Below are positions 4,275-20,870 of a stretch of DNA of 22,277 bases, one piece after another (position 1 is the first letter of the stretch; every line of letters begins with the position of its first letter). The stretch comes from a virus. Position numbers and translations under genes: made by a program. The notes beneath the pieces are model-generated. The model searched no databases, was not told where the DNA came from, and saw only the letters and a program-made list of their open reading frames with translations. Location: positions 1 through 22,277 of IMG/VR virus record IMGVR_UViG_3300033996_001049. One strand, given 5' to 3'.

Positions 4275-5726
4275 TCAGGCGAAAAATGGACGGCTAACGG
4301 TTTTCGCTCCAAACATCCGAGCCACGGCATCTGATTTATTAAATCGCGGGATTTGGCAATCAACGCGGCTTAAAGAACCTCGGACGGCTTCGCTGCACAG
4401 ATCGGATATAACGTCTACTGTGTCATCGTGTGCTGCGGCGGGGAATGACACCATCTCTTCGATAACGGGCTGAAATGCCGACAAAACTCGGCCATCATTG
4501 TCCATAGGGAACTTCAATTTCCCATCCTGAACAAACGGCTGTACTGCTGCGGCTCGGATGTGTTTGTCTTTAGTTCGCTCGACAGACATCATTGGGAAGT
4601 TGGTAATGGTCTGAAATTGGTCATAAATGCCTCTTTGCGGCCCATTACCCTCGGCCAATACAACCGATACCCCACGCCGTTCTAAAAGGTCTTTTGCCAT
4701 ACGTGCGAACGCAGGGAAAGTCTCGCGCACTCGTAGGCAATCGGTGATGTACAAATCCTTCTTGTTATCGACTTCCCCAACGATACATACGCTGTAATCA
4801 GGCTGCGTACCTGATTGCTGTTGTTTCCCGTATCCCCAATCGATTGCGGCGATTTTTCGTGTGACCTTTGGTAGTTCGTCTGACCTGTAGTATTGGAACC
4901 ATTCGGGTCGGAAGATAAGGAGATCGCTTGAGAGCGGTACGAGTTCGTATGCACGACCGTACGCCATAGCCCCCATCTTGCGGTATTGCTCTGACAATTC
5001 CTCATGTCGGAATACTTCTGACCACGGGCTAACTCTCAACCCGTTGTCAACGAAGCATGGCAATCGAAGTATGGTTCCCGATTCGAAATGAACCCGTCGC
5101 AACTCCGCCGTAATGTCATCGGTGTGATATGGGGTAGCGGTATTCCAAACTCGCGGTTTGAATGGCCCTCTTGACGCGATATCTCGCATCGGCATCCAGT
5201 TGCTGTAGTAAGCCTCTTTGACTTTGGCGCGTTCGGCTGGGATAAGAACCGCATTGCGGAGGTCGGAGATATCATCCGTCCATAGGATGTCAAAACGACC
5301 TCCTGCTCGTCCCATAATTCCTAATGCTTCAACTGTGGGGTCGCGGTTTCCGCGAGTTGCCAATGTCAATCGCCAGTTTGCTTTGGATGTATCGCCCTTA
5401 CGGATTTGAATGTGCGGGAAAACCGCTTTGTATCTATCCGACTCAATGATCTCTCGGATCATCCCAGCGGTTTTGGCTGATTCGGGATCGGTTGACCCAA
5501 CGATTTTGATACGCAGAGTCGGGTAATGCCCGAGCAACCAAGCGATTACGAGTGCGCCTGTGGTAGTTTTCCCATGTCCACGGGGCAGTTCGGCGTAACA
5601 ATCCTTGTTATCGATTAGGTATGAGATGAGTTGAGCGTGCATCGCCCCTATGGGTCGCCCCATAATTAGGGCGTTGAACGCCAACGGGTTCCGCCGAGCC
5701 TCGTTGATCGCTTGTTCGGGGGTCAT
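4275..5726 (-). CDS. terL: Terminase large subunit (packaging ATPase-nuclease)
   Basis: This 483-residue protein drives DNA packaging: an N-terminal ATPase powers translocation into the procapsid through the portal, and a C-terminal RNase H-like nuclease cuts the genome. Seen directly are a Walker A motif 'LPRGHGKTT' (residues 47-55), a Walker B motif 'FDILWTDD' (about 145-152), and nuclease-type acidic motifs 'AAIDWGYG' (about 300) and 'AAAHDDTVD' (about 440). Length is normal for the family. It starts at an ATG at 5726 that overlaps the stop of the upstream gene by four bases (ATGA), the usual small-to-large terminase coupling. The nuclease motifs look intact. Confidence 0.95.
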   Translation of the reverse strand: MTPEQAINEARRNPLAFNALIMGRPIGAMHAQLISYLIDNKDCYAELPRGHGKTTTGALVIAWLLGHYPTLRIKIVGSTDPESAKTAGMIREIIESDRYKAVFPHIQIRKGDTSKANWRLTLATRGNRDPTVEALGIMGRAGGRFDILWTDDISDLRNAVLIPAERAKVKEAYYSNWMPMRDIASRGPFKPRVWNTATPYHTDDITAELRRVHFESGTILRLPCFVDNGLRVSPWSEVFRHEELSEQYRKMGAMAYGRAYELVPLSSDLLIFRPEWFQYYRSDELPKVTRKIAAIDWGYGKQQQSGTQPDYSVCIVGEVDNKKDLYITDCLRVRETFPAFARMAKDLLERRGVSVVLAEGNGPQRGIYDQFQTITNFPMMSVERTKDKHIRAAAVQPFVQDGKLKFPMDNDGRVLSAFQPVIEEMVSFPAAAHDDTVDVISDLCSEAVRGSLSRVDCQIPRFNKSDAVARMFGAKTVSRPFFA

Positions 5727-6190
5727 TTGCAGGATTGTCGGATCGTCTGAACGACTGCGGACAATGCTTCGGGGGTAATTGATGCTACGGAGATGTTTTC
5801 GGTAGCCATGCCGTCATCTAGGCGTTGCACTCGATCAAGATCAACGGATGCCCCGATACCGCTTTCCTGTACTTTAAGTAAGAACTCTCTAGCGCGGGAA
5901 CGAATCCTGTCATCGGGATTCGCTAGGTCTTTGACTGCGGTCATGCAAGCCACCTTCATGGCATCGAACGGGACATCCAACGCAAGAGAAATTGCCCGTT
6001 GCAGCATGACGTACGCGCCGCGACGTCGATGCGGATCTTGAAATGACTCAATAATGGCAGAGCCGCGTGTGGCATCCTGATTTGCGCTGTCGACCTGTTC
6101 AGCGGTTTTCTTATAAGTGCGCTTATGAGTAGCAGGGGTATTTTCCGCTACCTCGTTTGCATTAAGAGAAGTGCGTTTCTTTACTGACAT
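5723..6190 (-). CDS. terS: Probable terminase small subunit
   Basis: A 155-residue basic protein placed directly before the large terminase and overlapping it by four bases. The small subunit recognises the packaging site and loads the large subunit. The first ~35 residues are basic and low in order. The central part (residues ~50-115, 'RGAYVMLQRAISLALDVPFDAMKVACMTAVKDLA' and 'RSRAREFLLKVQESG') is helical and leads to a short acidic C-terminus. I see no classical HTH signature, so the call rests mainly on position and size. The ATG at 6190 lies inside the last codons of the preceding IbrB gene (10-base overlap), so packaging genes are translationally chained to the IbrA/IbrB cassette. Confidence 0.62.
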   Translation of the reverse strand: MSVKKRTSLNANEVAENTPATHKRTYKKTAEQVDSANQDATRGSAIIESFQDPHRRRGAYVMLQRAISLALDVPFDAMKVACMTAVKDLANPDDRIRSRAREFLLKVQESGIGASVDLDRVQRLDDGMATENISVASITPEALSAVVQTIRQSCK

Positions 6191-6837
6191 GGAACACCGT
6201 GTTCTTTATGCAATTTGACTTGATGACGTGTTACCCAAGCGGCCTTGTACGATACGTCAGCAAACAACTTTGAGAACCCTGTAATGTGTTTGAGTCGGAG
6301 GAGTTCTTCGGGTTCCATCCCGAGTTCGTTGCAAATGTCGGCATCCGCCCACCCATTATGCAACATCTCAAATACAAGGTTTGACATCCCTGACACGGAG
6401 TGTTTGCCACGGGCGCGGTTGTGCCTAACGGTAGAAGCCATGCGGTCGTTCATCCCCTTGTTTAGGACAACGATTGGCAAGAGTCCCAAGTTTCGGTCTC
6501 GAATGTCTTTCCGAGTCTTACAGGTGTAATACCTGTGGAACCCGTCAACGATCTCATACATGTCGCGTTCGGCGTTGTAGACGGTAACAACTGGCTGTGT
6601 ATACCCGTCATGCAGAATGCTTGTGTAAAGCAAACTCATTTCATGTTGCGCGACTGAATTTGGGTTGTAGTCGTTGGGGGTGACTTTCTCGACCGGAACC
6701 CATCGAACTAAGTCAATAGGTTGCGATTGCAGCGGTGAAATGTTGTGAAGCGCCTCACGAACATCGCGCAAGAACTGCACCTTGTCCTCTGCTGCGTTAA
6801 AGGCTTCGGTAATCTGTTGGATGATTTGCGTGTTCAT
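6181..6837 (-). CDS. ibrB: IbrB-like ParB/sulfiredoxin-fold protein
   Basis: A 218-residue protein with a ParB/sulfiredoxin-fold domain at about residues 45-145. Visible are 'WVPVEKVTPNDYNPN', the phosphate-binding-type motif 'DGFHR' at 98-102, and 'RHNRARG' at 138-144, followed by a short helical HTH-like part ('WADADICNELGMEPEELLRLK'). The pattern and the direct partnership with an IbrA-like gene match IbrB, first named in E. coli as a regulator of immunoglobulin-binding protein genes and known as an IbrA/IbrB pair on phages and islands. The biochemical role is not established. It overlaps the ibrA stop by four bases (ATGA) and the next gene by ten. ParB-fold proteins can bind or hydrolyse nucleotides or cut DNA, and I cannot tell which applies here. 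Confidence 0.82.
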   Translation of the reverse strand: MNTQIIQQITEAFNAAEDKVQFLRDVREALHNISPLQSQPIDLVRWVPVEKVTPNDYNPNSVAQHEMSLLYTSILHDGYTQPVVTVYNAERDMYEIVDGFHRYYTCKTRKDIRDRNLGLLPIVVLNKGMNDRMASTVRHNRARGKHSVSGMSNLVFEMLHNGWADADICNELGMEPEELLRLKHITGFSKLFADVSYKAAWVTRHQVKLHKEHGVPCQ

Positions 6838-7991
6838 GGCTTTGCCTCAATGACGTATTTGCCGCTGTAAATTTCGTAGTTCGGGTCACTTTTTCTGCGG
6901 CGGTAGAGATGTCTTTGAGGTGATCGTTCCCAGTTTCCGATCTTGGTCATGTAATGATCGTTCGCAAGCACGGCAGAGATTTGCGCTTTGAACATATCGT
7001 TCTGATCGGGGTATTGGTCATACACCTCATCCATTTGCGCGAACTTGCGCTGGAACTTGTTCCTTGCTTCTTCGGTGGCAAGCAAGTTGCAAACCAAGTA
7101 ATCCCTGTACTCCTTCCATGATTCAAACATAGGAGGCAGGTTTTTGACCGTCATAAACGCATCTTCACGTAGTTGAGCAGCCATCTTTACGCCGCCAATG
7201 CGCTTGGTCAGTTTGTTCCACACTCGAGGTTCAAACTCCTGCATAAAGTAGAGAGATCGGACGGCGGTTTCGTGCGTTACGTTGCTAACGCGCATGTTTC
7301 GAATCGGAATGCCGTACTGAAACATGGTGTCGTAAAGGCTGCAATACTCCCATTTGTTCTCATGGATGGCTTTCCATACATCCGAGTAACACCAATCATA
7401 GATTGGGTAAAAGGTGTATTGCTCGTATCGCCTGTCAAGGATTTTCCCATACGAGATGTGCTTGTAGGTCTGATTTGATGTCAACCCGACGTATCGGGTC
7501 ATAGATTCATCCGCTCGCATCCCGCTCAAGTAACACATCTTGGTTTTGGGGAATGTGACCCTTGCGAACGCTGTAAACATTTCGGCAAATCGATCAGTGC
7601 CGTATATGTTTTCTTTGAGAGAGTTTGGTTCCTGCTCTCGTATCCAATCCTTTTGACGGGTTGGGTCCCAACATTTCAGCCATTGTTCTGCAGCGGATGT
7701 GGCATTAAAGATATTGAATGGGACTTGCAACCAGTATGGCTGAATTCGTGGGTCATTCATGACCTCTCGGATGTAATCAATCGCGCTGTCCCACTCGGCT
7801 TCTTGGTCAAGGAACATGACCTTAAGTGGGAGTCTTTTCCTTTCAGTAGCGATTTGAAGTGCTAGGTTAAATACAACCGTTGAATCTTTGCCGCCTGAGA
7901 TGCCAACTACCACTTCTTGAAACTCATCAAAGAGGTAATTGATGCGCTTGATTGCTGCGTCATAAACATTCGTCTTGAGGTAGATCTTCAC
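6834..7991 (-). CDS. ibrA: IbrA-like PAPS-reductase-family protein (PP-loop ATP pyrophosphatase)
   Basis: A 385-residue PAPS-reductase/adenine-nucleotide-alpha-hydrolase family protein. The PP-loop 'SGGKDST' is at residues 32-38, followed by 'KVMFLDQEAEWDSAIDYI', typical of PAPS-reductase-like folds. The middle holds 'YLSGMRADESMTRY' and 'YPIYDWCYSDVWKAI', seen in IbrA/DUF3440 proteins. Length is close to the family norm (about 400). Such enzymes activate sulfur or a substrate by adenylation. DndC, in DNA phosphorothioation, is a relative. The gene starts with a GTG at 7991 that overlaps the methyltransferase stop (GTGA), with AGGAGG 8 bases upstream. Its tight link to IbrB, a methyltransferase and another ParB protein points to one functional cassette. 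The substrate is unknown. Confidence 0.87.
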   Translation of the reverse strand: MKIYLKTNVYDAAIKRINYLFDEFQEVVVGISGGKDSTVVFNLALQIATERKRLPLKVMFLDQEAEWDSAIDYIREVMNDPRIQPYWLQVPFNIFNATSAAEQWLKCWDPTRQKDWIREQEPNSLKENIYGTDRFAEMFTAFARVTFPKTKMCYLSGMRADESMTRYVGLTSNQTYKHISYGKILDRRYEQYTFYPIYDWCYSDVWKAIHENKWEYCSLYDTMFQYGIPIRNMRVSNVTHETAVRSLYFMQEFEPRVWNKLTKRIGGVKMAAQLREDAFMTVKNLPPMFESWKEYRDYLVCNLLATEEARNKFQRKFAQMDEVYDQYPDQNDMFKAQISAVLANDHYMTKIGNWERSPQRHLYRRRKSDPNYEIYSGKYVIEAKP

Positions 7992-8803
7992 TTCCTAATC
8001 CTCCTGACGATGTAATTCCCGAATCGCTCATCGGTTTCTAGCACTTGATGGCTATATGAGTTTGGTCGTTCGGTGTTTGTGCGTAGATATGTCACGGGCG
8101 AGTAATCAGGCGCGTAGAACATCAAGGTTGCGCATCCACCTTCGTTCAGCATCCATGGGATCCGCTTGAGGTGATCTTCATGGATGTATGCAGCCACGCC
8201 AAACAATGCGACTATGCAGTCATATCCCGTTCCATAGAAATCTTCGAATGAAGTTCGAATTACTCGTTCGCTTCGTTCAGGATGTTTCCGCTTGAGTTCT
8301 TCTAGCATTGCCCCTGAAATATCAATGCCTGTATAGGACTCAGGGTTGCAGTAATCTAGTAGTAACCCTGTCCCGCATCCGACATCTAAGACACGGCCGT
8401 ACTTTGGAACTCCGCACATCTCTACCGCTTCTTTTGATTGCGACTCGCTTGCCTTGTCGTTAAACAGCGAGTCGTACACGAATGCGATATCGTCATACGG
8501 GTTTGGGTATTTCTTTTGCGCCCTGTTGATGAGTTCTGTGGCTTCAACGGTTGCGTTGTTATCCCAATGGTGCATACCGTTGATGTCTAGGTATGTGTAA
8601 GTTCGTCCAAAGAAACGGGTGGGGTACCCATTCTGTCGGACGAAACGGACGCAATCAGAGAACTTGCTGTCATCCCAATGCCTACGCAGCGTGTATTCAT
8701 GCGGGATTTTGGGCATGCTGCTTGCGAATTTGTATGGTGCGCTTGTCAGAGCCGCGCACATTTTGACGGCGTGTTCCCATTCAGATTGATTACGGACGAT
8801 CAA
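7988..8803 (-). CDS. SAM-dependent methyltransferase with N-terminal phage-associated domain
   Basis: A class I SAM-dependent methyltransferase. The best start is a TTG at 8803, with GGAGAGG about 9 bases upstream and a 14-base overlap with the ParB gene. The frame is open back to 8935, but that part lies inside the ParB gene and looks non-functional. From the TTG the protein has 271 residues. Residues ~20-85 form a small domain ('MPKIPHEYTLRRHWDD', 'GRTYTYLDINGMHHW', then 'ELINRA') that I recall as recurrent in phage proteins. The SAM-binding motif 'DVGCGTG' is at 140-146, then 'YTGIDISGAML'. No DNA-methylase catalytic motif (NPPY, DPPY or PCQ) is visible, so the target may be a small molecule, RNA, protein or an already modified base. 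Confidence 0.8.
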   Translation of the reverse strand: MIVRNQSEWEHAVKMCAALTSAPYKFASSMPKIPHEYTLRRHWDDSKFSDCVRFVRQNGYPTRFFGRTYTYLDINGMHHWDNNATVEATELINRAQKKYPNPYDDIAFVYDSLFNDKASESQSKEAVEMCGVPKYGRVLDVGCGTGLLLDYCNPESYTGIDISGAMLEELKRKHPERSERVIRTSFEDFYGTGYDCIVALFGVAAYIHEDHLKRIPWMLNEGGCATLMFYAPDYSPVTYLRTNTERPNSYSHQVLETDERFGNYIVRRIRK

Positions 8804-9362
8804 TTTTGAAGTCCTCTCCGCAATTAGGACACACGATGTCAATTTTGACGTTTGCGGAGGATGTGACATTGAATACGGAGTTTGCCCTGTCAATGTCCCG
8901 TTCCGTAATCTTGCTGTCTCCGAATTCAGGCTCAAGGATTGGTTCGTAAAAGTCCGCAGGCACGGAATTGACTACAGAATCGAGCATGGCATCAATTTCT
9001 GCGGCATCCCAGCCTGTAGCGTTTAGCCCTTCAGGACTCATTTCGTTTAAGAGTTGCTTGAGACGAGCATCATCCCAATCAGACAGTTCTGCTGTTCGGT
9101 TATCGGCAATAGCAAAAGCCGTTGCCTTTTCACCCTTGAGTTCAGTACGGACGCATTGCAGAGTTTGCCATCCCAACTTTTGAGCAGCGGCGAGCAGTCC
9201 ATTACCCGCAAGCACTACGTTGTCTTTTGAAATGACGATTGGCTTTTGCTGTCCGAACGCTTCAATACTTGCACAGATAGCGTCGATATTTCGCGCATCG
9301 TGTTTTCTTGCGTTTCGCGGATCAGAAGTCAGCAATGACACTTCAATTTCTTCGACCTTCAT
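8790..9362 (-). CDS. ParB-like nuclease-domain protein with C-terminal zinc-binding-like tail
   Basis: A 190-residue phage ParB-family protein. Residues ~1-90 hold the ParB N-terminal fold: 'DPRNARKHDARNIDAI', 'FGQQKPIVISKDNVVLAGNG' (GNG at 53-55 in place of the GxRR of plasmid ParB), 'AAAQKLGW' and 'AIADNRTAELSDWD'. The tail has a single CPNC pair (178-181) in 'VCPNCGEDFKI', which resembles half of a zinc ribbon and may bind a metal only as a dimer or not at all. In phages this fold is often fused to a DNA methylase. Here it stands alone with a separate methyltransferase gene just downstream. The ATG at 9362 has AAGGGA 7 bases upstream. Confidence 0.85.
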   Translation of the reverse strand: MKVEEIEVSLLTSDPRNARKHDARNIDAICASIEAFGQQKPIVISKDNVVLAGNGLLAAAQKLGWQTLQCVRTELKGEKATAFAIADNRTAELSDWDDARLKQLLNEMSPEGLNATGWDAAEIDAMLDSVVNSVPADFYEPILEPEFGDSKITERDIDRANSVFNVTSSANVKIDIVCPNCGEDFKIDRP

Positions 9363-11226: not shown

Positions 11227-11255
11227 CTCGCCCCTGTTGAAAGATAGGGTAAAAT
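11227..11255 (+). promoter_or_regulatory. Rightward promoter with operator-like spacer, close to a start codon
   Basis: The -10 TAAAAT (11250-11255) is preceded by the conserved 17-base block CCTGTTGAAAGATAGGG (11233-11249). The -35 position reads CTCGCC, a poor match, so this promoter may need an activator. It is back to back with the leftward promoter at 11219-11191, giving a divergent control region. The ATG at 11261 is five bases after the -10. Confidence 0.6.
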
Positions 11256-11260
11256 TGGGC

Positions 11261-11590
11261 ATGAATTGCATCTCTATTCAGGCTACTGGTCGTACAGAAT
11301 TGCGTGACATCCCCGAAGACCTATGCGTGCTACAAGACGCTGTGGGCGGATATCTTGAATCGCTCCTATTGCGCACCGACCAAGGCAATGCGGTCATGCT
11401 GCTTAACGAAGAAGGCAAACTTTTGAACTTGCCGATAAATGTTGAGGCGAGTTTTTTGGCAGTGCGATTCGCAGGCATCTGTGACAAGACCGATTGGATA
11501 TGCGGAAATGTACTTTTGTTCGGAGAAGCAGATGCCGAAGGGAACTTGACCGAAGCCCCAATGTGGTTACGCAACTTGTTGCGTTTATAA
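11261..11590 (+). CDS. DUF3846 family protein
   Basis: A 109-residue protein of the DUF3846 type, common in phages and mobile elements and without a known function. The family pattern is visible: 'DLCVLQDAVGGYLESLLL' (the 'LQ..VgG.ie' motif), 'LLNEEGKLLNLPIN' (NEEGK then N) and 'GNVLLFGEADAEGNLTEA'. The frame is open back to a TTG at 11237, but that lies upstream of the promoter -10, so the ATG at 11261 is the better start. Transcription would then begin at or within a base or two of the ATG, making the message leaderless or nearly so. There is no ribosome binding site. It is a single-gene unit before the next promoter. Confidence 0.8.
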   Translation: MNCISIQATGRTELRDIPEDLCVLQDAVGGYLESLLLRTDQGNAVMLLNEEGKLLNLPINVEASFLAVRFAGICDKTDWICGNVLLFGEADAEGNLTEAPMWLRNLLRL

Positions 11591-11701: not shown

Positions 11702-12589
11702 ATGACCACGCCAACCACCCACTCGCAACTGCAATACGGAATTGAGATCGAATGTGGTATCAACTTCAACGTTGATATCATGGTCGGTCAACGCCGACAC
11801 GGAATTGAGCAACGACAACTTCCAGATTTCCAAGGGAAATTTTGGAAGGCCGAGCAAGATGGCTCGCTTCAATTTCGCGGTAGCCGTGGAGTCGAGTTTG
11901 TCTCTCCGAAGTTGCGCGGAAAAGAAGGTCTTGACAACATCACCGAAACTTGCAAGCGCATTAAGGCGATGGGTGGCAGGACAAACGACACCTGTGGACT
12001 TCATATCCATGTCGAGTTCCCAACGGATTCGATTGATGCGATGCGGCGCTTGACCAAATTGGTCGCCCGATTCGAAGTGGGAATCTTTGCAAGCACGGGT
12101 ACTCCACAACGTGCGCGTAACGGATTCTGCAAGCCCATCAAAGACCTAATGAAAACGCTGAATTGGGCTAGCGCGAGCCATAAGGAACATGTTTCATGGC
12201 ACCGCGGGTTCCGTGACCGATATCAAATGCTCAACTGGACGAACCTGATTGACGGCCGATTTAATGCTGTTGAGTTCCGAGCGTTTAGCGGAACCGTCAA
12301 CCCAAAGAAAATCGCAGCGTGGATCCGCATCTGTCTTACGCTTGTGCAGATGGCCCTTGACGGCGTTGAACCTGATTGGGACATCAACCCAACTACCCTT
12401 CAAAACACCACAGGAACGCTCGGAGAGTCCAATCTCCGATGCCTTTTCTTCTACTGTTGGAAGGGACAGCGCAGCAAGAAGCAGTATGGGGAACTTCACC
12501 ACGAAACTTACACGCTCGCGCAGGACATGAAAACCCTGCGGAACCTTGCTATCCGACATGACATCCGCGCAGGACTGCGCACTCAATAA
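11702..12589 (+). CDS. Amidoligase-family enzyme (glutamine-synthetase-like fold)
   Basis: A 295-residue protein of the Amidoligase_2 type. These enzymes use ATP to join a carboxylate to an amine, making amide bonds on peptides, proteins or small metabolites. Visible family motifs are 'YGIEIE' (12-17), 'DGSL' (53-56), 'GVEFVSP' (63-69), 'CGLHIHV' (98-104, probable metal ligands), a conserved 'RYQMLNW' (173-179) and 'EFRAFSGT' (191-198). Length is typical. The next gene is a class II glutamine amidotransferase, a pairing known for amidoligase operons (described by the Aravind group), in which the amidotransferase could supply ammonia or remove or exchange a glutamine amide. It is the first gene of its operon, with AAGGAAGGAA before the ATG. 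The substrate is unknown. Confidence 0.85.
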   Translation: MTTPTTHSQLQYGIEIECGINFNVDIMVGQRRHGIEQRQLPDFQGKFWKAEQDGSLQFRGSRGVEFVSPKLRGKEGLDNITETCKRIKAMGGRTNDTCGLHIHVEFPTDSIDAMRRLTKLVARFEVGIFASTGTPQRARNGFCKPIKDLMKTLNWASASHKEHVSWHRGFRDRYQMLNWTNLIDGRFNAVEFRAFSGTVNPKKIAAWIRICLTLVQMALDGVEPDWDINPTTLQNTTGTLGESNLRCLFFYCWKGQRSKKQYGELHHETYTLAQDMKTLRNLAIRHDIRAGLRTQ

Positions 12590-12608
12590 ACAATCAAGGA
12601 GATTGCAT

Positions 12609-13346
12609 ATGTGTGGCATTTTCGGACACTTTTCGTTGGAACCACTTCGTCGTAAGCACCTTGTTACGTTGCGAGAAGCGGCGCGTAGTCAGGTGATGCG
12701 CGGTCAAGACGCGTTTGGTATCGCTTGGTGTAGTGCTAGCGGTATTGATTCACACAAGCAACAGGGGTCAATCGCAGATCATTTGCAACACATGAAATTG
12801 GGGATAGGTAGCGTTGCAATGATCGGCCATACCCGCATGGCTACGCATGGCTGCCCATCAGAAAACATGAACAACCATCCGCATCGGTTTGCGATGCAGA
12901 ACAGCCCAGCGTACTTGGTGCATAACGGAGTCATTAGTAACTATGCGGAAATCTGTAGGCTTCGCGGATTGACAATGACTACAGAATGCGACAGCGAAGT
13001 TCTTGCCCGTCACATGGAGGACGGCAGGGGTGGAATCCTTAACAGGGTGAAAGCCGCTGTGCGAGACATTGACCCGTACGCGCCATTTGCCGCAGCAATC
13101 CTCACGCCTAATTACATCATTCTTGCGCGACGTGGAAATCCGCTTTACTGGTCAGAAACCCAATCGCAGCGATGGTTCGCAAGCACCCATCACGGGTTGA
13201 CCGGAAAGCATTGGTTAGTTCCTGACAACACGGCATTCAGCATTTCACTCAACAGTGGCGAGGTCGCAACTATTGAATTGGACAAGCGCATCCCATCAAC
13301 AATGCGTTTTCTCGGGAGCGACCTTTTTACGAGAGGGAACAAATAA
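12609..13346 (+). CDS. Class II glutamine amidotransferase (Ntn hydrolase)
   Basis: A 245-residue protein starting at the ATG at 12609, with AAGGAG upstream. The frame is open to 12546, but only this start puts Cys at position 2, the N-terminal nucleophile exposed after Met removal. It begins 'MCGIFGHFS'. Other motifs are 'GHTRMATHG' (73-81), 'NNHPHRF' (88-94), 'VHNGVISNYAEI' (104-115) and 'CDSEVLARHME' (127-137), all standard for class II amidotransferases such as PurF and AsnB. No synthetase or phosphoribosyl domain follows, so it is a stand-alone glutaminase unit. Released ammonia would go to a partner, most likely the adjacent amidoligase. All visible catalytic motifs are intact. Confidence 0.93.
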   Translation: MCGIFGHFSLEPLRRKHLVTLREAARSQVMRGQDAFGIAWCSASGIDSHKQQGSIADHLQHMKLGIGSVAMIGHTRMATHGCPSENMNNHPHRFAMQNSPAYLVHNGVISNYAEICRLRGLTMTTECDSEVLARHMEDGRGGILNRVKAAVRDIDPYAPFAAAILTPNYIILARRGNPLYWSETQSQRWFASTHHGLTGKHWLVPDNTAFSISLNSGEVATIELDKRIPSTMRFLGSDLFTRGNK

Positions 13347-13348
13347 CA

Positions 13349-13714
13349 ATGCGCTTTATCACACCAAACATCTCCAAATCGTTTATGACGGAACTCGGCC
13401 CTGATTGGCGTCAGTATCACGAGGAATGCCGCAGCAAAACTTCCGAGGAAGGAATTGAGAATGCTGCCATCATTTCTGTACTCATGCCCGAATACCATCG
13501 GTTGCATGATAAGGATTACGGCGTCGATATCCGTTATTGGGGATGCACCGCAATCGTCAGCACATCAACTAGTGATGACAAGGTTTTGGTTATTCGTTCA
13601 GCAGCGCGTTGCAGACCAAATGACACGAATGATTCTGTTGGGGAAGAGTTCAAGTTGTTCTTAACGACTTTCATTGAGGAAGCGTTGGGAGATACGGTGG
13701 TGAACGATGAATGA
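13349..13714 (+). CDS. Hypothetical protein (121 aa) in the amidoligase operon
   Basis: A 121-residue protein that I do not recognise. It is mixed alpha/beta, slightly acidic, without signal peptide, membrane segment or repeats. Noticeable parts are 'PEYHRLHDKDYGVDIRYWGC' (residues ~47-66) and a C-terminal helix ('EEFKLFLTTFIEEALGD'). The ATG is two bases after the amidotransferase stop, preceded by GAGAGGGAA, and its own stop overlaps the next start (ATGAATGA). Co-translation with the amidoligase and amidotransferase suggests it may be a substrate or partner of that pair. That is inference from position only. Confidence 0.7.
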   Translation: MRFITPNISKSFMTELGPDWRQYHEECRSKTSEEGIENAAIISVLMPEYHRLHDKDYGVDIRYWGCTAIVSTSTSDDKVLVIRSAARCRPNDTNDSVGEEFKLFLTTFIEEALGDTVVNDE

Positions 13715-13913
13715 CCCACTTTCATGTATCGCCATGACGGTGCGTACTGACCGAGAAGAACTCATTATTGAAACTCCTCAAGGTCGCATCTTCATCAACC
13801 TCAACCCCGTTAGTCAAAAGCGCATAAAAGCGATTGTCAGGGCTCCACGTAGTATCCCTGTGTATCGCAAGCCACTTCAGGAAAATAACAATGCCGACGT
13901 TCAACAAGGATGA
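13707..13913 (+). CDS. CsrA-like small RNA-binding protein
   Basis: A 68-residue protein resembling the translational regulator CsrA/RsmA, which binds GGA motifs in mRNA leaders as a beta-strand dimer. The match covers 'MTVRTDREELIIET' (from residue 10, like the CsrA start 'MLILTRKVGE') and especially 'RIKAIVRAPRSIPVYRK' (39-55), which fits 'VRLGI.AP..I.V.R.E', including the Arg (54) known to be key for RNA contact in CsrA. The ATG at 13707 overlaps the upstream stop. A second ATG at 13734 (Met10) aligns with the normal CsrA start and could be the true one. It could regulate phage or host mRNAs. The similarity is short and judged by eye. Confidence 0.55.
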   Translation: MNDPLSCIAMTVRTDREELIIETPQGRIFINLNPVSQKRIKAIVRAPRSIPVYRKPLQENNNADVQQG

Positions 13914-14205
13914 GGCGTGCGCGTTAGGCGTACGCGGTATGCAAATTGCATCTGAACACCGATTAGAGGTGCTTCGCATAGCGCAATGGTGCGCGAGGCA
14001 AATTGCTAGAGAAAACGGCGAGGTCACTAGCGATGATGTCGCTATGGAAATGACCAAAATGAACGCGGACTATGACCTGTTACAAAATGCTGCGGGAAGT
14101 GTTTTCCGAGCAGACTTTGAATGGACAGGGAAAGTTATCAAGTCATCTCGCGTTTCTACGCATGGTCGTTGCATCCGCGTTTGGCGATTAAAGGAGGGTT
14201 CGTAA
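13891..14205 (+). CDS. Hypothetical protein with winged-helix-like C-terminus
   Basis: A 104-residue protein starting at the ATG at 13891, which has AGGAAAA upstream. An earlier in-frame start at 13834 lies inside the CsrA-like gene and is less likely. Helical at first ('HRLEVLRIAQWCARQIAREN'), then 'GEVTSDDVAMEM', and a basic C-terminus 'FRADFEWTGKVIKSSRVSTH' followed by 'GRCIRVWRLK'. The last part looks like a winged helix seen in phage replication or regulator proteins, where a beta wing ends in 'VWRLK'. The DNA-binding idea is inference. It overlaps the upstream gene by 23 bases and its stop (TAA) overlaps the next ATG. Confidence 0.68.
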   Translation: MPTFNKDEACALGVRGMQIASEHRLEVLRIAQWCARQIARENGEVTSDDVAMEMTKMNADYDLLQNAAGSVFRADFEWTGKVIKSSRVSTHGRCIRVWRLKEGS

Positions 14206-14432
14206 TGCAAGGAATGGATACTCTCCTCGTAATGCGCGGGATCATTGCGGCTGGGCAAGAAAAATACAAGTTCCGAGGCGGGGTAGGTGATGTCACCATA
14301 CCCCTATCAATCTTGATGCAAGCGGCTGATGAGATATGCGTAGCCCGTGATTGCTCTGCGCGTGCAAAGGGTACTATGATTAGTACTCATGATGACGATA
14401 CGACACAGGAACACACGCATACCACGACATAG
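14205..14432 (+). CDS. Small hypothetical protein (75 aa)
   Basis: A 75-residue protein starting at the ATG at 14205, which shares a base with the preceding stop (TAATG) and has AAGGAGGG at a good distance. The core ('IIAAGQEKYKFRGGVGDVTI', then 'PLSILMQAADEICVAR') looks folded, while the last ~15 residues are a His/Thr/Asp-rich tail ('THDDDTTQEHTHTTT'). It is not a family I recognise. Ribosome binding site and coupling support it as real. Confidence 0.65.
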   Translation: MQGMDTLLVMRGIIAAGQEKYKFRGGVGDVTIPLSILMQAADEICVARDCSARAKGTMISTHDDDTTQEHTHTTT

Positions 14433-14461
14433 GTTCTTGCATATTCGGGAGTGCGCTATCA

Positions 14462-15007
14462 ATGGTTAAACGCAAATCCCGAACTCCCAAACAAGCATCT
14501 GAACCCTCCTGCGAATCTGATGCGTTGCTTGTAACTAACGATCTTGTTACATCAACGCATTTTTTCGTACATGGGACTCCTACTACGCAAGGTAGTAAAT
14601 CCCTAATGCGTGTTCGCGGTCGTGTAATGATGATTGAAACTAGCAAAGGTCTTCACGCGTGGCGATCAGCGGTAGCAACCTCTGCGGTCAAAGCAGGGAT
14701 TAAAATATCCGAAGGCGACGTTGCTATCAAAATTATCGCATATTGGGTTCGTCCTCAATGTCATGTGACATCAGAAGGATTACCGCGCAAATCCTGCCCT
14801 CCACGCCCGAGATATGCAGACTGTGACAAACTAGCCCGTGCGATATGCGACGCATTAGCGGGAATCGCATACCGCAATGACAGGCAAGTTGCTGTACTTA
14901 CCGTAGAGCGGAAATGGTGCGAAGAAAATCAATCTACAGGTGCAATGATTACCGTAGAAAAATTACCCGCATTGCCGCTCGATTGCTTGAAACCTTCATT
15001 GAAGTAG
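14462..15007 (+). CDS. rusA: RusA-like Holliday junction resolvase
   Basis: A 181-residue protein of the RusA family, which resolves four-way junctions formed in phage recombination and replication. Family features seen are 'HGTPTTQGSKSLM' (38-50), 'WVRPQCH' (95-101), the catalytic 'ADCDKLARAICDALAG' (119-134) and 'YRNDRQV' (137-143). Asp120, Asp122 and Asp140 correspond to the three essential aspartates of E. coli RusA. The usual 'PD.DN/DKL' is 'AD.DKL' and the usual 'DD.QV' is 'ND.QV', small changes that leave the catalytic set. The first ~30 residues are a polar extension. CGGGAG lies 10 bases before the ATG. Its 3' end contains the promoter of the ERF operon. Confidence 0.9.
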   Translation: MVKRKSRTPKQASEPSCESDALLVTNDLVTSTHFFVHGTPTTQGSKSLMRVRGRVMMIETSKGLHAWRSAVATSAVKAGIKISEGDVAIKIIAYWVRPQCHVTSEGLPRKSCPPRPRYADCDKLARAICDALAGIAYRNDRQVAVLTVERKWCEENQSTGAMITVEKLPALPLDCLKPSLK

Positions 15008-15015
15008 GGTATCTT
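14987..15015 (+). promoter_or_regulatory. Rightward promoter of the ERF operon, inside the 3' end of rusA
   Basis: -35 TTGAAA (14987-14992), a 17-base spacer CCTTCATTGAAGTAGGG, and -10 TATCTT (15010-15015). The spacer has the shared CCT...AGGG ends and an internal CTTCA/TGAAG inverted repeat. The start site would be about 20 bases before the ERF ATG. Confidence 0.78.
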
Positions 15016-15042
15016 TCCTTTGCCGAAAACGGCGGAGGACAT

Positions 15043-15816
15043 ATGCATCATTCAGAAAGCATTTCAAAACTTGTCACGGCACTTACGTTAGCGCAGTTAA
15101 AAACAAAGAACCCTGCGCTCGATAAAGCGCACCCTCACTTCCGAGGATTTCGGTACGCGTCACTTGGATCTCACATTGACGCTATCCGAGAAGTGTTTGC
15201 AGAGAACGGTCTTGCGATTCTGCAGGGGGTTCAATCGGATGGGCCTACCGTATCTGTCACGACCATGATCTGCCACACATCAGGCGAGTGGATCAAGAGT
15301 ACGGTCGGTATGACCCTAGCGGAGAATGCTACGGCTCAAAACATCGGGTCATGTGTTACATACCTTCGTCGTTATCAACTCGCGGCGATGACCATGCTTA
15401 CAGGAGAGGATGACACTGATGCGGAAGATGATCGCCGCGAAAAGGAGCCTCCAAAGCCGCGCCCTGCTGCGCCGTCCGCGCCTGCCCGTAAGGATGATGT
15501 GTTCTCGCCGCAACCTACGGGCAATGCTGCCAAGCCTAAAGCCGCATCACCACGCAAATGGCCTGACGCGGGTTCGGATGTAATCCGTGTAGAGAAGGTA
15601 GTTGACCGTGGAGATGTCATCGCGTTGCTATGCGCTCACGCGGTGCATTCATCCGCATGGGTAAGCGCACCAAAGTCAATCGCATCTGACGTAAGAGCGG
15701 AACAGACTCTTGAACTTGATTGGGTGTGGAATACCGCAGGGTTTTATGAGGCAAAGTCCATCAAAGAAGCACCGCGGTTCCGAGATTTGATCGCAAAGGG
15801 TGAAATCCCATTCTAA
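15043..15816 (+). CDS. erf: ERF-family single-strand annealing protein with SSB-like C-terminal tip
   Basis: A 257-residue ERF (essential recombination function) annealing protein, which anneals complementary single strands in phage recombination. The ATG at 15043 has GGAGGA upstream and follows its own promoter; the frame is open further back but into rusA. The ERF core is residues ~1-125, with 'RYASLGSHIDAIREVFAENG', 'HTSGEWIKST' and 'IGSCVTYLRRYQLAAM', then 'GEDDTDAED'. A Pro/Ala-rich linker (~133-175) leads to a C-terminal domain (~178-245) that may be OB-fold-like. The protein ends 'GEIPF', close to the 'DDIPF' tip by which bacterial SSB recruits partners, suggesting host SSB-binding proteins are recruited. 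That last point is inference. Confidence 0.9.
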   Translation: MHHSESISKLVTALTLAQLKTKNPALDKAHPHFRGFRYASLGSHIDAIREVFAENGLAILQGVQSDGPTVSVTTMICHTSGEWIKSTVGMTLAENATAQNIGSCVTYLRRYQLAAMTMLTGEDDTDAEDDRREKEPPKPRPAAPSAPARKDDVFSPQPTGNAAKPKAASPRKWPDAGSDVIRVEKVVDRGDVIALLCAHAVHSSAWVSAPKSIASDVRAEQTLELDWVWNTAGFYEAKSIKEAPRFRDLIAKGEIPF

Positions 15817-15821
15817 AAATC

Positions 15822-16148
15822 ATGGAACACTCCAAGAACATCTGCAATATCGCAACTGCGATGATGGAACACGAAGTAATGAGCCGTAAAGACGGAGAGT
15901 TGTTACTCGCAGCAGCAGACGAAATCATCCGCTTACAGGCCGAGGTGGAAACACTTCGTGAATCCAAACGCAAGGAAGCAGAGTATTTAGGTTTGACGCT
16001 AGAGCAAATGGCTGTTCGGTTAGCCGCGATGAATACACGGCTTGAATCCGAGTTGCATGTCGCAAGAATGCAAGCGCACCTTTTGCGTCTTCAAGATAGT
16101 GACAGGAAACTTGACATCGGGCCGAATGCCCTGAAGGGATCAAAATGA
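15822..16148 (+). CDS. Small coiled-coil protein in the ERF operon
   Basis: A 108-residue helical protein. Residues ~25-95 form a near-continuous coiled coil ('LLLAAADEIIRLQAEVETLR', 'MAVRLAAMNTRLESELHVAR'). The ATG is five bases after the ERF stop, so it has little room for its own ribosome binding site and may be coupled. Its stop overlaps the next ATG (ATGA). It resembles the many small coiled-coil proteins of phage early regions. I assign no function. Confidence 0.72.
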   Translation: MEHSKNICNIATAMMEHEVMSRKDGELLLAAADEIIRLQAEVETLRESKRKEAEYLGLTLEQMAVRLAAMNTRLESELHVARMQAHLLRLQDSDRKLDIGPNALKGSK

Positions 16149-16654
16149 GCCTTTATCAAATCACATCCGAGTTGGTTAGCCTAATTGATGCGTTTGACCG
16201 GTTCGGGCATGAATCGCAAGAAGCAGCCGATGCAATCAAAGAACATACTGATGCGATCGTAGAAGCATTCGATGCAAAGGCTGATGATTATGCAGCCCTT
16301 ATTCGGATCGCTGAAACACGAGCAGCGGCACGAAACGAAGAATCCGAGCGCATGCGGAAACTCGCTCAAGATGATGAGGCATTAGCCGCACGATTGCGAA
16401 CCGCGTTGATGGATGCCATGAAGCGCACTAACCGAACCAAGGTTCAAACTGCTAGGTTCAAGTTGTCTGTGCAAAACAATGGCGGAAAAATCCCCGTAAT
16501 TATCAACGATGAGAATGCGTTGCCCGAAGAGTTCCGAGTGCCTAAAGTCACTATCATCATTGATAAAGAAGCACTGCGTGAGAAACTGGAAAGCGGTGTT
16601 GCAGTATCAGGCGCTTCGCTTGGTGAACGCGGTCAACGACTCAACCTAAAGTGA
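16145..16654 (+). CDS. Siphovirus Gp157-family protein
   Basis: A 169-residue protein of the Sipho_Gp157 family (first known from streptococcal phages, where it was linked to phage resistance; the role is unclear). Typical features are a long N-terminal helical part rich in Ala/Glu ('AKADDYAALIRIAETRAAAR', 'EESERMRKLAQ'), a central 'LRTALMDAMKRTNRTKVQTARF' region, then 'KLSVQNNGGKIPVIINDENA' and 'LPEEFRVPKVTIIIDKEALR' with a Gly-rich end. It is commonly found next to ERF or RecT-type recombination genes, as here. It is the last gene of the ERF operon and is followed by a UUCG hairpin and a strong terminator. Confidence 0.9.
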   Translation: MSLYQITSELVSLIDAFDRFGHESQEAADAIKEHTDAIVEAFDAKADDYAALIRIAETRAAARNEESERMRKLAQDDEALAARLRTALMDAMKRTNRTKVQTARFKLSVQNNGGKIPVIINDENALPEEFRVPKVTIIIDKEALREKLESGVAVSGASLGERGQRLNLK

Positions 16655-16662
16655 CTCCTCCA

Positions 16663-16714
16663 CAGGGTTCGCCCTGTCCCACCCTCATTTGCTGCATGGG
16701 GGTGGGTTTTTTTT
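16663..16714 (+). terminator. Double hairpin with strong intrinsic terminator
   Basis: First a CAGGG-TTCG-CCCTG stem with a stable tetraloop (16663-16676), then CCCACCC (16678-16684) pairing with GGGTGGG (16700-16706), followed by eight T residues. It ends the ERF/Gp157 unit just before the next promoter. Confidence 0.93.
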
Positions 16715-17956: not shown

Positions 17957-18358
17957 ATGCAAACATTCCTTCCCTACCCCGACTTTTCAAAATCTGCAGC
18001 GTGTCTTGATCGCTTGCGTCTTGGCAAGCAACGCGTAGAGTGTGTGCAAATCCTCAACGCGTTACGCGGAGCAAGCAGGGGATGGGTCAACCATCCAGCC
18101 ACAAGAATGTGGCGCGGGTACGAACCCGCTCTCTGCAATTACACTCGTATGTGCATTGTTGAGTGGGTTGCGCGTGGTTACAAGAACACGATGCCAATGC
18201 AACCGCTGTTTGAAAACGCGGAAATGCCGCCATGGTTCGGCAACCCCGACTTTCACGCATCGCACCGAAGTAATTTGCTGCGGAAAGATTTTGAGTTCTA
18301 CTCAAAAATGGGGTGGACAGAACCCTCGACCCTCGCGTATATTTGGCCTGTCGCCTAG
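17957..18358 (+). CDS. Pyrimidine-dimer DNA glycosylase-like protein (MSMEG_6728 family)
   Basis: A 133-residue protein of the family related to T4 endonuclease V (Pyr_excise), which removes UV-made pyrimidine dimers. The start 'MQTFLPYPDFSKSAACLDRL' and 'RLGKQRVECVQILNALRG' followed by 'GWVNHPATRMWRGYEPAL' are the hallmark of the MSMEG_6728 group. Whether this group has glycosylase activity is not settled. A repair role for phage or host DNA is plausible. There is no clear ribosome binding site in front of the ATG at 17957; GTAGAG is the nearest match. It is the last gene before a pair of hairpins and a terminator. Confidence 0.85.
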   Translation: MQTFLPYPDFSKSAACLDRLRLGKQRVECVQILNALRGASRGWVNHPATRMWRGYEPALCNYTRMCIVEWVARGYKNTMPMQPLFENAEMPPWFGNPDFHASHRSNLLRKDFEFYSKMGWTEPSTLAYIWPVA

Positions 18359-18501: not shown

Positions 18502-18942
18502 TTACTCGTCAGGGTCGCCTAACAACTCTTGCTTCGGCGGGTCAGGTTGCTTAAACGGCACAAGTTTGTTCAAGGCTTCGCGGCGTTTGCCACACCCGCC
18601 ACAAGGCTTGATACCTACCGCGCTCGTAACGCTCGCAACAACGTCCCCTAAACCCCGCCAGCCGCCTTTGGCGGGTTCGGAGGGGGCTGAGGAGGAGGAA
18701 GGGTTGCTACGCCTTGGTGATGATTCCCCTGCCTTCTGCGAAACGCCGCCGTCTAGCAGGGGCGGGTTGGCAAAGTCGCCGTTTCGCGACAAGCGCGAGG
18801 GGCATTCGGCGCACCCTGCAACATCTAAATCCTGACGGCACATAGGCGAGCCGACTCGAACTGCCCAATGCTGGCAATCGACAACAGGCAGGGAAACACC
18901 GCGAACAGTGATGATGGCATTCGTTAGATGGCTCATCCGCAT
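18502..18942 (-). CDS. Phage protein with C-terminal 'CGGC' zinc-finger-like motif
   Basis: A 146-residue protein. Its first ~50 residues have 'VDCQHWAVRVGSPMCRQDLD' and 'VAGCAECPSRLS', several Cys pairs that could hold metal. The middle (~55-95) is Ser/Pro/Gly-rich linker. The end, 'GLGDVVASVTSAVGIKPCGG' then 'CGKRREALNKLVPF', matches a pattern I recall from many phage proteins ('TGIKPCGGCKKRQEKLN'), of unknown function. ATGs at 18942 and 18936 are both possible; the latter gives the usual ATGA overlap with the upstream gene. Confidence 0.68.
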   Translation of the reverse strand: MRMSHLTNAIITVRGVSLPVVDCQHWAVRVGSPMCRQDLDVAGCAECPSRLSRNGDFANPPLLDGGVSQKAGESSPRRSNPSSSSAPSEPAKGGWRGLGDVVASVTSAVGIKPCGGCGKRREALNKLVPFKQPDPPKQELLGDPDE

Positions 18943-20870
18943 GGATCCAAACGTAGGTCACGCGCTGTAGTTTCGCAGAAGATCGCAGGATTTTGGAACG
19001 CGTCGGAAACGCACGGAACAGGCAATGGATGTTCCAAATCCCACAACGAACAATCGGGATAATCGGGTGGGCAACACGGCGCGACTGAATACAGCAGCGG
19101 GAAGCAGCGGCATTCATAAAGCGAGCCGCTCATCCCATTTGAAAGCGTATAAAACCCTGGAACGGTGTATGGCGGCGCAGGAGGGACGTGAACAATGACA
19201 TCGCTCATCGGGTATCCGCTACGCGCAGGGCATTGTTCCACTAACTGAATTGCACCATTCGGTGCAACGCAAATCTCAATATCTCTTTGCGGTTGCTCCG
19301 TTTCCATAAACGAGTACCGCGAACCGTTTGCGTATTCAGGCATGGACAAGCAATCAATGAACCCAATTTGATCCGCTGAAATTTTGCTAACGGTCGTTTC
19401 AAACTGAACACCAAAAGCCAAACTGTATATGCAGTTTGGAGCAACCGTGTATTGCGGATCGGTGATGACCCCTAAACGCTGTTCAAAGCAAACGTATTTC
19501 TTCTTGCTTACGCCGCTCAATACCACCTGAATCTGTTCAGTAGCAGGAATGTATTGCACAAAGGAAACTTCTAGTTCATCTCCTTCTTGATATTGCGGTC
19601 GCTGATTCGCAACTTCCCAATCGCATTTCTCACAGCCCTGCCGATTCCCGAACCAAAACAGATCAGGCCACGGTGAATTGAGAACCTCAACCTGAACGCT
19701 TGCTCCGATTCGGTTGTTGACCTTCTCCGCAAGTCGCGTTGCGTTACCTGACAACATTCTGACCTGTAGGCCGCAAATGTTCACGTCGTACGTTGACATC
19801 GGCCCCCAGCACGTTGGGTAAGACCCCGCGCCGAACCTCACGAATTGCGTTCGCACCCATGTATCAAGTGCAGCAGAATCGGTTGGGTCAACGCCTTCAG
19901 ACAATGGGATGCACTTGTTGAACCACAGCCGCAACAAATCTTCCTGCTGATACTCCGTACCGACGTTAGTGCAGTTTTGAACCAAATAGCACGTCGTAAC
20001 CTTGTATGACTTGAGGTAATCCAACACGTTGCCATTCTCACACGCTAATGGATCGTCAGCGCATGGATCTGATCCGCCGCAACAATCAAGGGATACGAAT
20101 GCCCAGCAATCAGGGCATTGTGATTTGACAATGAATTCCTGTTCGACCTGATTCGGACAGGAAAACGGTTGTGGGAGACAGTCGTAGCCGCCGCTAGGAT
20201 CGGGAACGGGTACGCCGTTTAGGAACTTGCACGGCTCGCAATAGCCAAGAAAAGTTTCGCAATCCACCGTGACTTTTACAACCCGATCAGGTGGCCCGTG
20301 ATCGCAACGCACATTCGGCGGAACCCCTGGAACGGTCACGCACAACGATAGTTGTGAAGTGATCTTGTTAGGTCTACCTTTGACCGTCCCGTACTGATCG
20401 CAGAGCGTGTAGCAATCCGCAATCAATTCGACGCACGGAAATTCAACGGGATCAGGGTTTACAACGACAGGGCCGCATCCAGGAATGATGACATTCGCCA
20501 TTGTTCCTGGCGGCATCAGCGTTGTGTCATACGGATTTGGCCGACAACATGACCCGCCGTTTCTATCAAACACTGCTACTAGCGTTCCTACGTTCACAGG
20601 CCACGGACTAGAAGGGTTTGGGCATGGGCCAACGTCCGTTCCAACTAGATTGTAGAAACAACACTTGTATGAAAAGATGTAGCACTTATTAAAGTCAGGC
20701 GGTGTAGGAATACCAAGAAACTTTAGGTACGCCTCGCAGAAATCAATTCGATCGGGAGCGTTCTCGCAATCGTTGTAGGGACAGCATTCAGGCATCAAAT
20801 CAGGACACTTGAGCGCGTAGTACCGAATACCGTCATCGCAGCAACACGCCGCAGTCGTAACGCCGCTCAT
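18933..20870 (-). CDS. Cysteine-rich virion-type protein of unknown function (645 aa)
   Basis: A 645-residue protein that I do not recognise. About 51 Cys (near 8 percent by hand count) are spread over the whole length, often as CC, CPxC or CxxC, with many Pro, Asn and Gly. It has no signal peptide or membrane segment, so the Cys are more likely metal ligands or disulfides formed in the virion after release than in a secreted host protein. Parts such as 'GDELEVSFVQYIPATEQIQV' (about residue 425) are beta-rich, as in fibre or spike proteins. Size and the late-gene context (lysis and tail genes just upstream) suggest a virion structural protein. The start overlaps the HTH gene stop (ATGA). Confidence 0.75.
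   Translation of the reverse strand: MSGVTTAACCCDDGIRYYALKCPDLMPECCPYNDCENAPDRIDFCEAYLKFLGIPTPPDFNKCYIFSYKCCFYNLVGTDVGPCPNPSSPWPVNVGTLVAVFDRNGGSCCRPNPYDTTLMPPGTMANVIIPGCGPVVVNPDPVEFPCVELIADCYTLCDQYGTVKGRPNKITSQLSLCVTVPGVPPNVRCDHGPPDRVVKVTVDCETFLGYCEPCKFLNGVPVPDPSGGYDCLPQPFSCPNQVEQEFIVKSQCPDCWAFVSLDCCGGSDPCADDPLACENGNVLDYLKSYKVTTCYLVQNCTNVGTEYQQEDLLRLWFNKCIPLSEGVDPTDSAALDTWVRTQFVRFGAGSYPTCWGPMSTYDVNICGLQVRMLSGNATRLAEKVNNRIGASVQVEVLNSPWPDLFWFGNRQGCEKCDWEVANQRPQYQEGDELEVSFVQYIPATEQIQVVLSGVSKKKYVCFEQRLGVITDPQYTVAPNCIYSLAFGVQFETTVSKISADQIGFIDCLSMPEYANGSRYSFMETEQPQRDIEICVAPNGAIQLVEQCPARSGYPMSDVIVHVPPAPPYTVPGFYTLSNGMSGSLYECRCFPLLYSVAPCCPPDYPDCSLWDLEHPLPVPCVSDAFQNPAIFCETTARDLRLDPCG

Follow-up and report, generated by a model that had tools for sequence, protein, structure and literature searches.

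Several phages carry cassettes of predicted amide-bond-forming enzymes. A seven-gene cassette found in many podoviruses, with amidoligases, an ATP-grasp enzyme, a gamma-glutamyl cyclotransferase and a glutaminase, has been described in connection with Pseudoalteromonas phages and, citing Hardies et al. (2013), was hypothesized to alter peptidoglycan and block superinfection (PMC5498523). Phage UFV-P2 has an amidoligase, a glutaminase, an ATP-grasp enzyme and a GGCT-like protein (PMC3890496), and Arthrobacter phages have an amidoligase together with a cyclotransferase (PMC5513430). The functions of such cassettes are predicted only in the literature examined, and no biochemical test of a phage amidoligase/glutaminase pair is evident from the titles and abstract openings of the phage amidoligase literature. 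Here, an amidoligase gene and a class II glutaminase gene lying side by side in IMG/VR virus record IMGVR_UViG_3300033996_001049 are analyzed; the window, i.e., the whole stretch examined, comprises this record in full (22,277 bases) and is possibly a fragment. Comparison with related loci (designated by L numbers) suggests that the two enzymes probably act as one unit, with about an even chance of forming a single glutamine-dependent amidating enzyme, and that the small genes behind them belong to a different unit.

The amidoligase-glutaminase pair

Profile scans detected the amidoligase in 42 viral loci and the glutaminase in 49, counts that include near-identical contigs. The amidoligase lies directly upstream on the same strand in 45 of the 49 glutaminase loci, the remaining four being L095, which begins at the glutaminase gene, and L101-L103. 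Conversely, a glutaminase follows within 1.5 kb in 32 of the 42 amidoligase loci, in 24 of the 31 that have at least 1.7 kb of downstream sequence, and in 31 of the 34 closest ones, where two of the three misses are contig ends (L027, L052) and L031 is a real miss. The identical order was found in Arthrobacter, Alcaligenes and Aeromonas phages, and both genes are also present in each of the five loci that come from bacterial assemblies, of which four are Planctomycetota. This recurrence among many related phages suggests that the pair probably forms one working unit. The amidoligase was matched in only 4 of 392 genomes from the phylum of L105, a Planctomycetaceae assembly, and this rarity fits a viral gene. 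A host among the Planctomycetota is therefore likely for the lineage and possible for the window itself.

For residue and neighbor comparisons, 41 non-redundant pairs were defined by requiring both matches below 1e-15 and a gap of -900 to 1500, followed by clustering at 90% identity. Loci with a weak or cut glutaminase match (L042, L054), with no same-strand pair (L027, L031, L050, L052, L053, L055-L059) or with no amidoligase (L095, L101-L103) were left out, and the window stands for L002 in the residue alignment.

The 295-residue amidoligase matched Amidoligase_2 (PF12224) with 77.8 bits, above the curated cut-off of 22. A sequence search of the PDB gave no convincing relative. Its AlphaFold2 model, built on an alignment of 34 sequences, has a mean predicted local distance difference test score (pLDDT) of 92.5, and Foldseek returned 20 PDB chains at E <= 0.001, the best being YbdK-type and glutamine synthetase chains. 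Structure comparison gave Z scores of 14.1 for YbdK (243 residues, 4.0 A), 13.7 for plant glutamate-cysteine ligase, 13.1 for glutamine synthetase and near 12 for Dop/PafA. The protein is predicted to have the glutamine synthetase/glutamate-cysteine ligase (carboxylate-amine ligase) fold; families of this fold form amides via a phosphorylated carboxylate. Across the 41 pairs, E15, E17, D53, E65, H101, N178, E191 and R193 are invariant wherever a letter is present, and H103 (39/40) and S55 (38/39) are nearly so.

The 245-residue protein encoded downstream matched GATase_6 with 46.2 bits (Pfam cut-off 27). It starts with MCGIFG, and the start at 12609 places the cysteine at position 2. Its nearest relative is the glutaminase half of GlmS (NCBIfam 4e-26; PDB 1xff, 1.3e-12), and the EgtC model matched only weakly, at 1.8e-4 and 20.9 bits (cut-off 218.65). 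The synthase half of GlmS, PurF or AsnB is missing, as only about the first 200 positions of these models are covered and the scores are far below the cut-offs. C2, R76, T79, N106, G107 and D128 are identical in all 41 glutaminases, and H80 is kept in 37. Judged by its sequence, the protein is a class II glutamine amidotransferase with an N-terminal cysteine nucleophile and glutamine-binding residues. A functional pair of amidoligase and class II glutaminase, as put forward in the first-pass annotation, is supported both by the strong co-occurrence (45/49 and 31/34) and by the catalytic residues, which are retained throughout the 41 pairs.

The partners known from the LUZ24/phiEco32 cassettes are mostly absent. 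Neither an ATP-grasp enzyme nor a second COOH-NH2 ligase was found near any of the 41 non-redundant pairs, a count in which the window is represented by L002, a locus truncated beyond the start of its glutaminase gene. Neither enzyme appeared, either, when the window genes flanking the pair to the left and right were scanned with Pfam. A gamma-glutamyl cyclotransferase lies near 6 of the 41 pairs. GGACT had no match in the 22,277-base window record, possibly a fragment, and was present in 2 of 25 whole records (those of L031 and L056). A tree of amidoligases with 58 rows places the four rows from cassettes on one side of a branch with support 99, and the window amidoligase belongs to a starred set whose other four members are L018, L019, L021 and L060.

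Some related arrangements were observed in addition. In L105 and in the L031 record, a second amidoligase lies on the same contig within a few kilobases of the first, and in L105 one of the two has a glutaminase. An unnamed gene of about 150 residues lies between the amidoligase and the glutaminase, or just after, in 7 of the 41 pairs (L029, L043, L069, L083, L088, L094, L096), and the gene following the glutaminase in 6 of the 41 is presumably ASCH-like. At about 5200-8400 in L007, a PAPS-reductase-like gene and a possible further PP-loop-type gene adjoin that of a related class II glutaminase; that record had no Amidoligase_2 match, and the same type of glutaminase may have another partner there.

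The gene run and the block behind the pair

The pair lies in a run of genes on the + strand, with the following features:

11261..11590, + strand: DUF3846 protein, first gene of the run (Pfam DUF3846 3.2e-12 on 11237-11590; homologue at the same place in L018/L004)
11702..12589, + strand: Amidoligase_2 protein, predicted ATP-dependent amide-bond-forming subunit (Pfam 1.6e-21; PHROG 2443, 4.7e-26)
12609..13346, + strand: putative class II N-terminal nucleophile (Ntn) glutamine amidotransferase of one GlmS-like domain, with Cys2 as nucleophile (GATase_6 6e-12)
13349..13714, + strand: 121-residue protein with no family match, grouped with the CsrA-like and 104-residue genes (homologue in L021/L061, 3.6e-6)
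13707..13913, + strand: 68-residue small beta protein weakly similar to CsrA (PF02599, 20.1 bits, cut-off 27)
13891..14205, + strand: 104-residue protein, following the CsrA-like gene here and in L018, L019, L020 and L021
14205..14432, + strand: 75-residue protein (homologue in L018)
14462..15007, + strand: RusA-like resolvase (Pfam RusA 1.2e-10)
15043..15816, + strand: ERF-family single-strand annealing protein (Pfam ERF 4.6e-18 for the longer open reading frame; 75% identity to L018 over 260 residues)
15822..16148, + strand: 108-residue protein (homologue in L018)
16145..16654, + strand: Sipho_Gp157 protein (Pfam 4.4e-34)
16678..16706, + strand: terminator-like hairpin at the end of the run, 11 pairs, 7 of them G-C, then a T run, TTTTTTTT (consensus match only)

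The start of the DUF3846 gene at the ATG at 11261 was preferred to the TTG at 11237 from the alignment with L004, and the ERF start at 15043 was also set by alignment. The open reading frames (ORFs) 11702-12589, 12609-13346, 13349-13714 and 13707-13913 were confirmed with sizes of 295, 245, 121 and 68 residues, the first three being separated by 19 and 2 bases and the last two sharing 8 bases, in agreement with the first-pass placement of four genes with gaps of 19 bases or less or overlaps. Codon usage gave log-odds per codon of 0.159 for the 121-residue ORF and 0.137 for the 68-residue ORF, next to 0.141 and 0.106 for the enzymes; three of four antisense control ORFs scored about 0 and the fourth 0.106, and this test is weak by itself. 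All four genes lie inside the co-directional run from DUF3846 (11261) to Gp157 (16654), which stays tightly packed past 13913 to 16654, and the genes to its left (up to 11155) point away from it. The run represents a recombination, or early-type, module that would be expressed early in infection. Near the genes, no known RNAs, including riboswitches, were found, and promoter matches were not above the count in shuffled sequence. Defense-system models gave no match to the four proteins.

The close spacing had been read in the first-pass annotation as one operon of four genes, with the 121-residue protein as candidate substrate of the enzymes. The relatives speak for a different division. L018 and L004 have the order DUF3846, amidoligase, glutaminase, CsrA-like, 104-residue, 75-residue, RusA, ERF, 108-residue and Gp157, which is the window order minus the 121-residue gene. 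In L019 and L020, the CsrA-like and 104-residue genes lie about 5 kb upstream of the pair, with RusA, ERF and Gp157 between, and in L021 the pair is followed, after at least 1.4 kb, by the 121-residue homologue, the CsrA-like and 104-residue genes, RusA and ERF. The first two of these overlap by 8 bases in L021, same as in the window. L060 has the pair without any of the block in its 8.2 kb. Because relatives have the block at a distance of kilobases from the pair, upstream in some and downstream in others, the enzyme pair and the 121-residue, CsrA-like and 104-residue genes appear to be two separately moving units rather than one operon. To judge by these gene orders, the two touch here through their place in a shared run and not through a common task kept by evolution. 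Correcting the four-gene reading in this way spares experiments on the wrong substrate.

The 121-residue protein had no Pfam, NCBIfam or phage-database match and no confirmed match in viral contigs, and besides window copies its only homologues among 121 loci are L021/L061 (29% identity, 3.6e-6). As it travels with the CsrA-like and 104-residue genes, and as L018/L004 have no copy of it next to the pair, it was rejected as a general substrate.

The name CsrA-like stands for a 68-residue ORF that is indeed present, and its membership in the CsrA family is weak. The protein scored 20.1 bits against a cut-off of 27 in Pfam and 12.5 against 73 in NCBIfam, so that a firm CsrA assignment was not reached. 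Two of the five members of its family match Pfam CsrA at E <= 1, and its profile match to RsmF/RsmN has an E value of 0.07-0.09. The CsrA fold is a strand-swapped dimer with a C-terminal helix. The model is a five-strand monomer with no helix; in fold comparison RsmN (4krw) appeared at Z 2.4 among unrelated rows and no CsrA chain was prominent, an outcome that speaks neither for nor against CsrA. A tblastn search of phages with this protein gave no match.

Elsewhere in the window, ParB-like, PAPS-reductase/DndC-like, methyltransferase and second ParB-like genes lie beside a terminase gene at 5723-9362 (- strand), an arrangement largely retained in L018. A 645-residue protein at 18933-20870 (- strand) has 51 cysteines, which is unusual for a cytoplasmic phage protein, and a pyrimidine dimer DNA glycosylase (Pfam Pyr_excise 2.6e-24) is encoded at 17957-18358 (+ strand).

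Proposed reaction and rival explanations

A split amidating enzyme is the best reading of the pair because a glutamine-binding Ntn domain is joined with an ATP-dependent amide ligase without the other cassette enzymes; that the two proteins are subunits of one glutamine-dependent enzyme of this kind seems to us an evenly balanced proposition. In this reaction, host glutamine would be hydrolyzed by the glutaminase to release ammonia, which would then attack an acyl phosphate that the glutamine-synthetase-fold subunit forms from a carboxylate and ATP, giving R-CO-NH2. Complex formation, ammonia transfer and action early in infection are inferred. The reading is supported by the conserved pairing and active-site residues, by the GlmS score, which far exceeds that of the hydrolase EgtC, by the predicted ligase fold, that of amide formers acting via a phosphorylated carboxylate, and by the usual lack of the other cassette enzymes in the lineage. 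As for the substrate, our first guess would be a peptide-type precursor of the envelope, modified at a carboxylate, by analogy with MurT-GatD, which does this with other folds, and next a small-molecule or protein glutamate; the data single out none of the products suggested in the first-pass annotation, namely a protein tag, a cell-wall change or a modified nucleotide. More tentatively, the pair may represent an uncharacterized kind of system in which a class II (Ntn) glutaminase feeds a stand-alone glutamine-synthetase-fold ligase, a minimal two-gene system of tailed phages, probably of Planctomycetota. To our knowledge, characterized class II glutaminases pair with a phosphoribosyltransferase, isomerase, PP-loop or flavin synthase, never with this fold.

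Several observations weigh against a two-subunit enzyme. The L101-L103 records gave no Amidoligase_2 match in a search that was positive in 6 other records given. Of ten whole records of amidoligases searched for GATase_6, nine, with distant amidoligases (L053, L055-L058 and four complete phages), had no match, the tenth being that of L031, and thus the ligase fold can do without a glutaminase. In L031, a close amidoligase adjoins a cyclotransferase and has no paired glutaminase; the GATase match of that record is on the other strand, nearer to the second amidoligase. The distance matrices of the two enzymes do correlate (r 0.862), as would be expected of any two co-inherited genes, and no fused ligase-glutaminase ORF was seen among the loci.

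The chief rival to an amidating enzyme is a cycle in which a gamma-glutamyl amide is made and later broken. EgtA and EgtC add and then remove a gamma-glutamyl group in ergothioneine synthesis; in a similar manner the amidoligase would couple an amine to the gamma-carboxyl of glutamate. The class II domain would later act as a gamma-glutamyl hydrolase, a role in which it and the gamma-glutamyl cyclotransferase beside other phage amidoligases would be interchangeable. The nearest ligase folds, YbdK and glutamate-cysteine ligase, would suit this chemistry, the conserved glutaminase residues could equally hold a gamma-glutamyl group, and a cyclotransferase adjoins amidoligases that have no glutaminase in GR1, Bacillus 035JT001 and L031. 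Both enzymes are counted as degradation genes in the account of the PSA-HP1 cassette (PMC5498523). Nevertheless, the domain fits the GlmS type far better than EgtC, and glutaminase and cyclotransferase are not exclusive: the two occur together in 8 tree rows, next to 36 rows with the glutaminase alone and 4 with the cyclotransferase alone, labels that are not frequencies as the rows were mostly chosen for having both genes. We regard such a cycle as unlikely. A change of peptidoglycan that blocks superinfection, with the pair as a reduced form of the seven-gene podovirus cassette, seems to us equally doubtful. It names a substrate and is compatible with either mechanism. The PSA-HP1 cassette enzymes, for which a surface change was proposed, lie among replication genes as the pair does here (PMC5498523), and the two-gene MurT-GatD system is described as amidating peptidoglycan glutamate with glutamine. 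However, the ATP-grasp enzyme and second ligase required for the proposed linkages are those absent near 41 of 41 pairs, and none of the genes in the run was recognized as an envelope gene.

Two further explanations are far less probable. The planctomycete phage Phage-ZRK32 has a glutaminase, an amidoligase, a glutathione synthase and a cyclotransferase and reportedly aids growth on nitrate or ammonium (PMC10945688), and the close homologues of the window pair in Planctomycetota assemblies would fit a similar role as auxiliary metabolic genes that help nitrogen metabolism by adding ammonia to amino acids. But the part of that report describing the growth effect does not trace it to these genes (PMC10945688), and a glutaminase consumes assimilated nitrogen; this role seems highly improbable. 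Modification of a carboxylate-bearing DNA base or nucleotide is the least probable of all: it would agree with the position of the pair in a run of recombination genes, but no known base-hypermodification enzyme occurs among the window proteins scanned (20 with Pfam, 10 with PHROGs), the window being possibly a fragment.

Comparison with known systems

In the cassettes of the phiEco32, LUZ24, RIO-1 and PA11 type, as in the window, an Amidoligase_2 gene is followed on the same strand by that of a Gn_AT_II protein among replication genes. The window differs from these cassettes in that the pair has neither an ATP-grasp enzyme nor a COOH-NH2 ligase type 2 nor a cyclotransferase nearby, its amidoligase stands on the other side of the branch with support 99, and its glutaminase is a single domain of 245 residues. 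The Arthrobacter phages Ottawa (genes 65-66) and Waltz (95-96) also have the amidoligase and then the glutaminase annotated side by side; in these phages, however, a cyclotransferase lies upstream (annotated in Waltz, matched by a hidden Markov model in both), and their proteins share 22-31% identity with those of the window.

Outside phages, MurT-GatD is described with the same two-gene logic of ligase plus glutaminase, although it combines a Mur-ligase-like protein with a CobB/CobQ-type glutaminase, a different class of both enzymes. EgtA-EgtC brings a GCS-type ligase fold and a class II amidotransferase fold into one pathway, as the pair may do, whereas the window glutaminase reaches just the 20.9 bits of 218.65 mentioned above for EgtC. 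Glutamine synthetase, YbdK, glutamate-cysteine ligase and PafA/Dop share the predicted fold of the window amidoligase (Z 12-14) at 8-14% identity. Cassettes with these enzymes are already in print, and the window holds a minimal form of them, without ATP-grasp, second ligase and cyclotransferase. With just the two enzymes retained, this lineage offers the simplest setting in which to identify the reaction.

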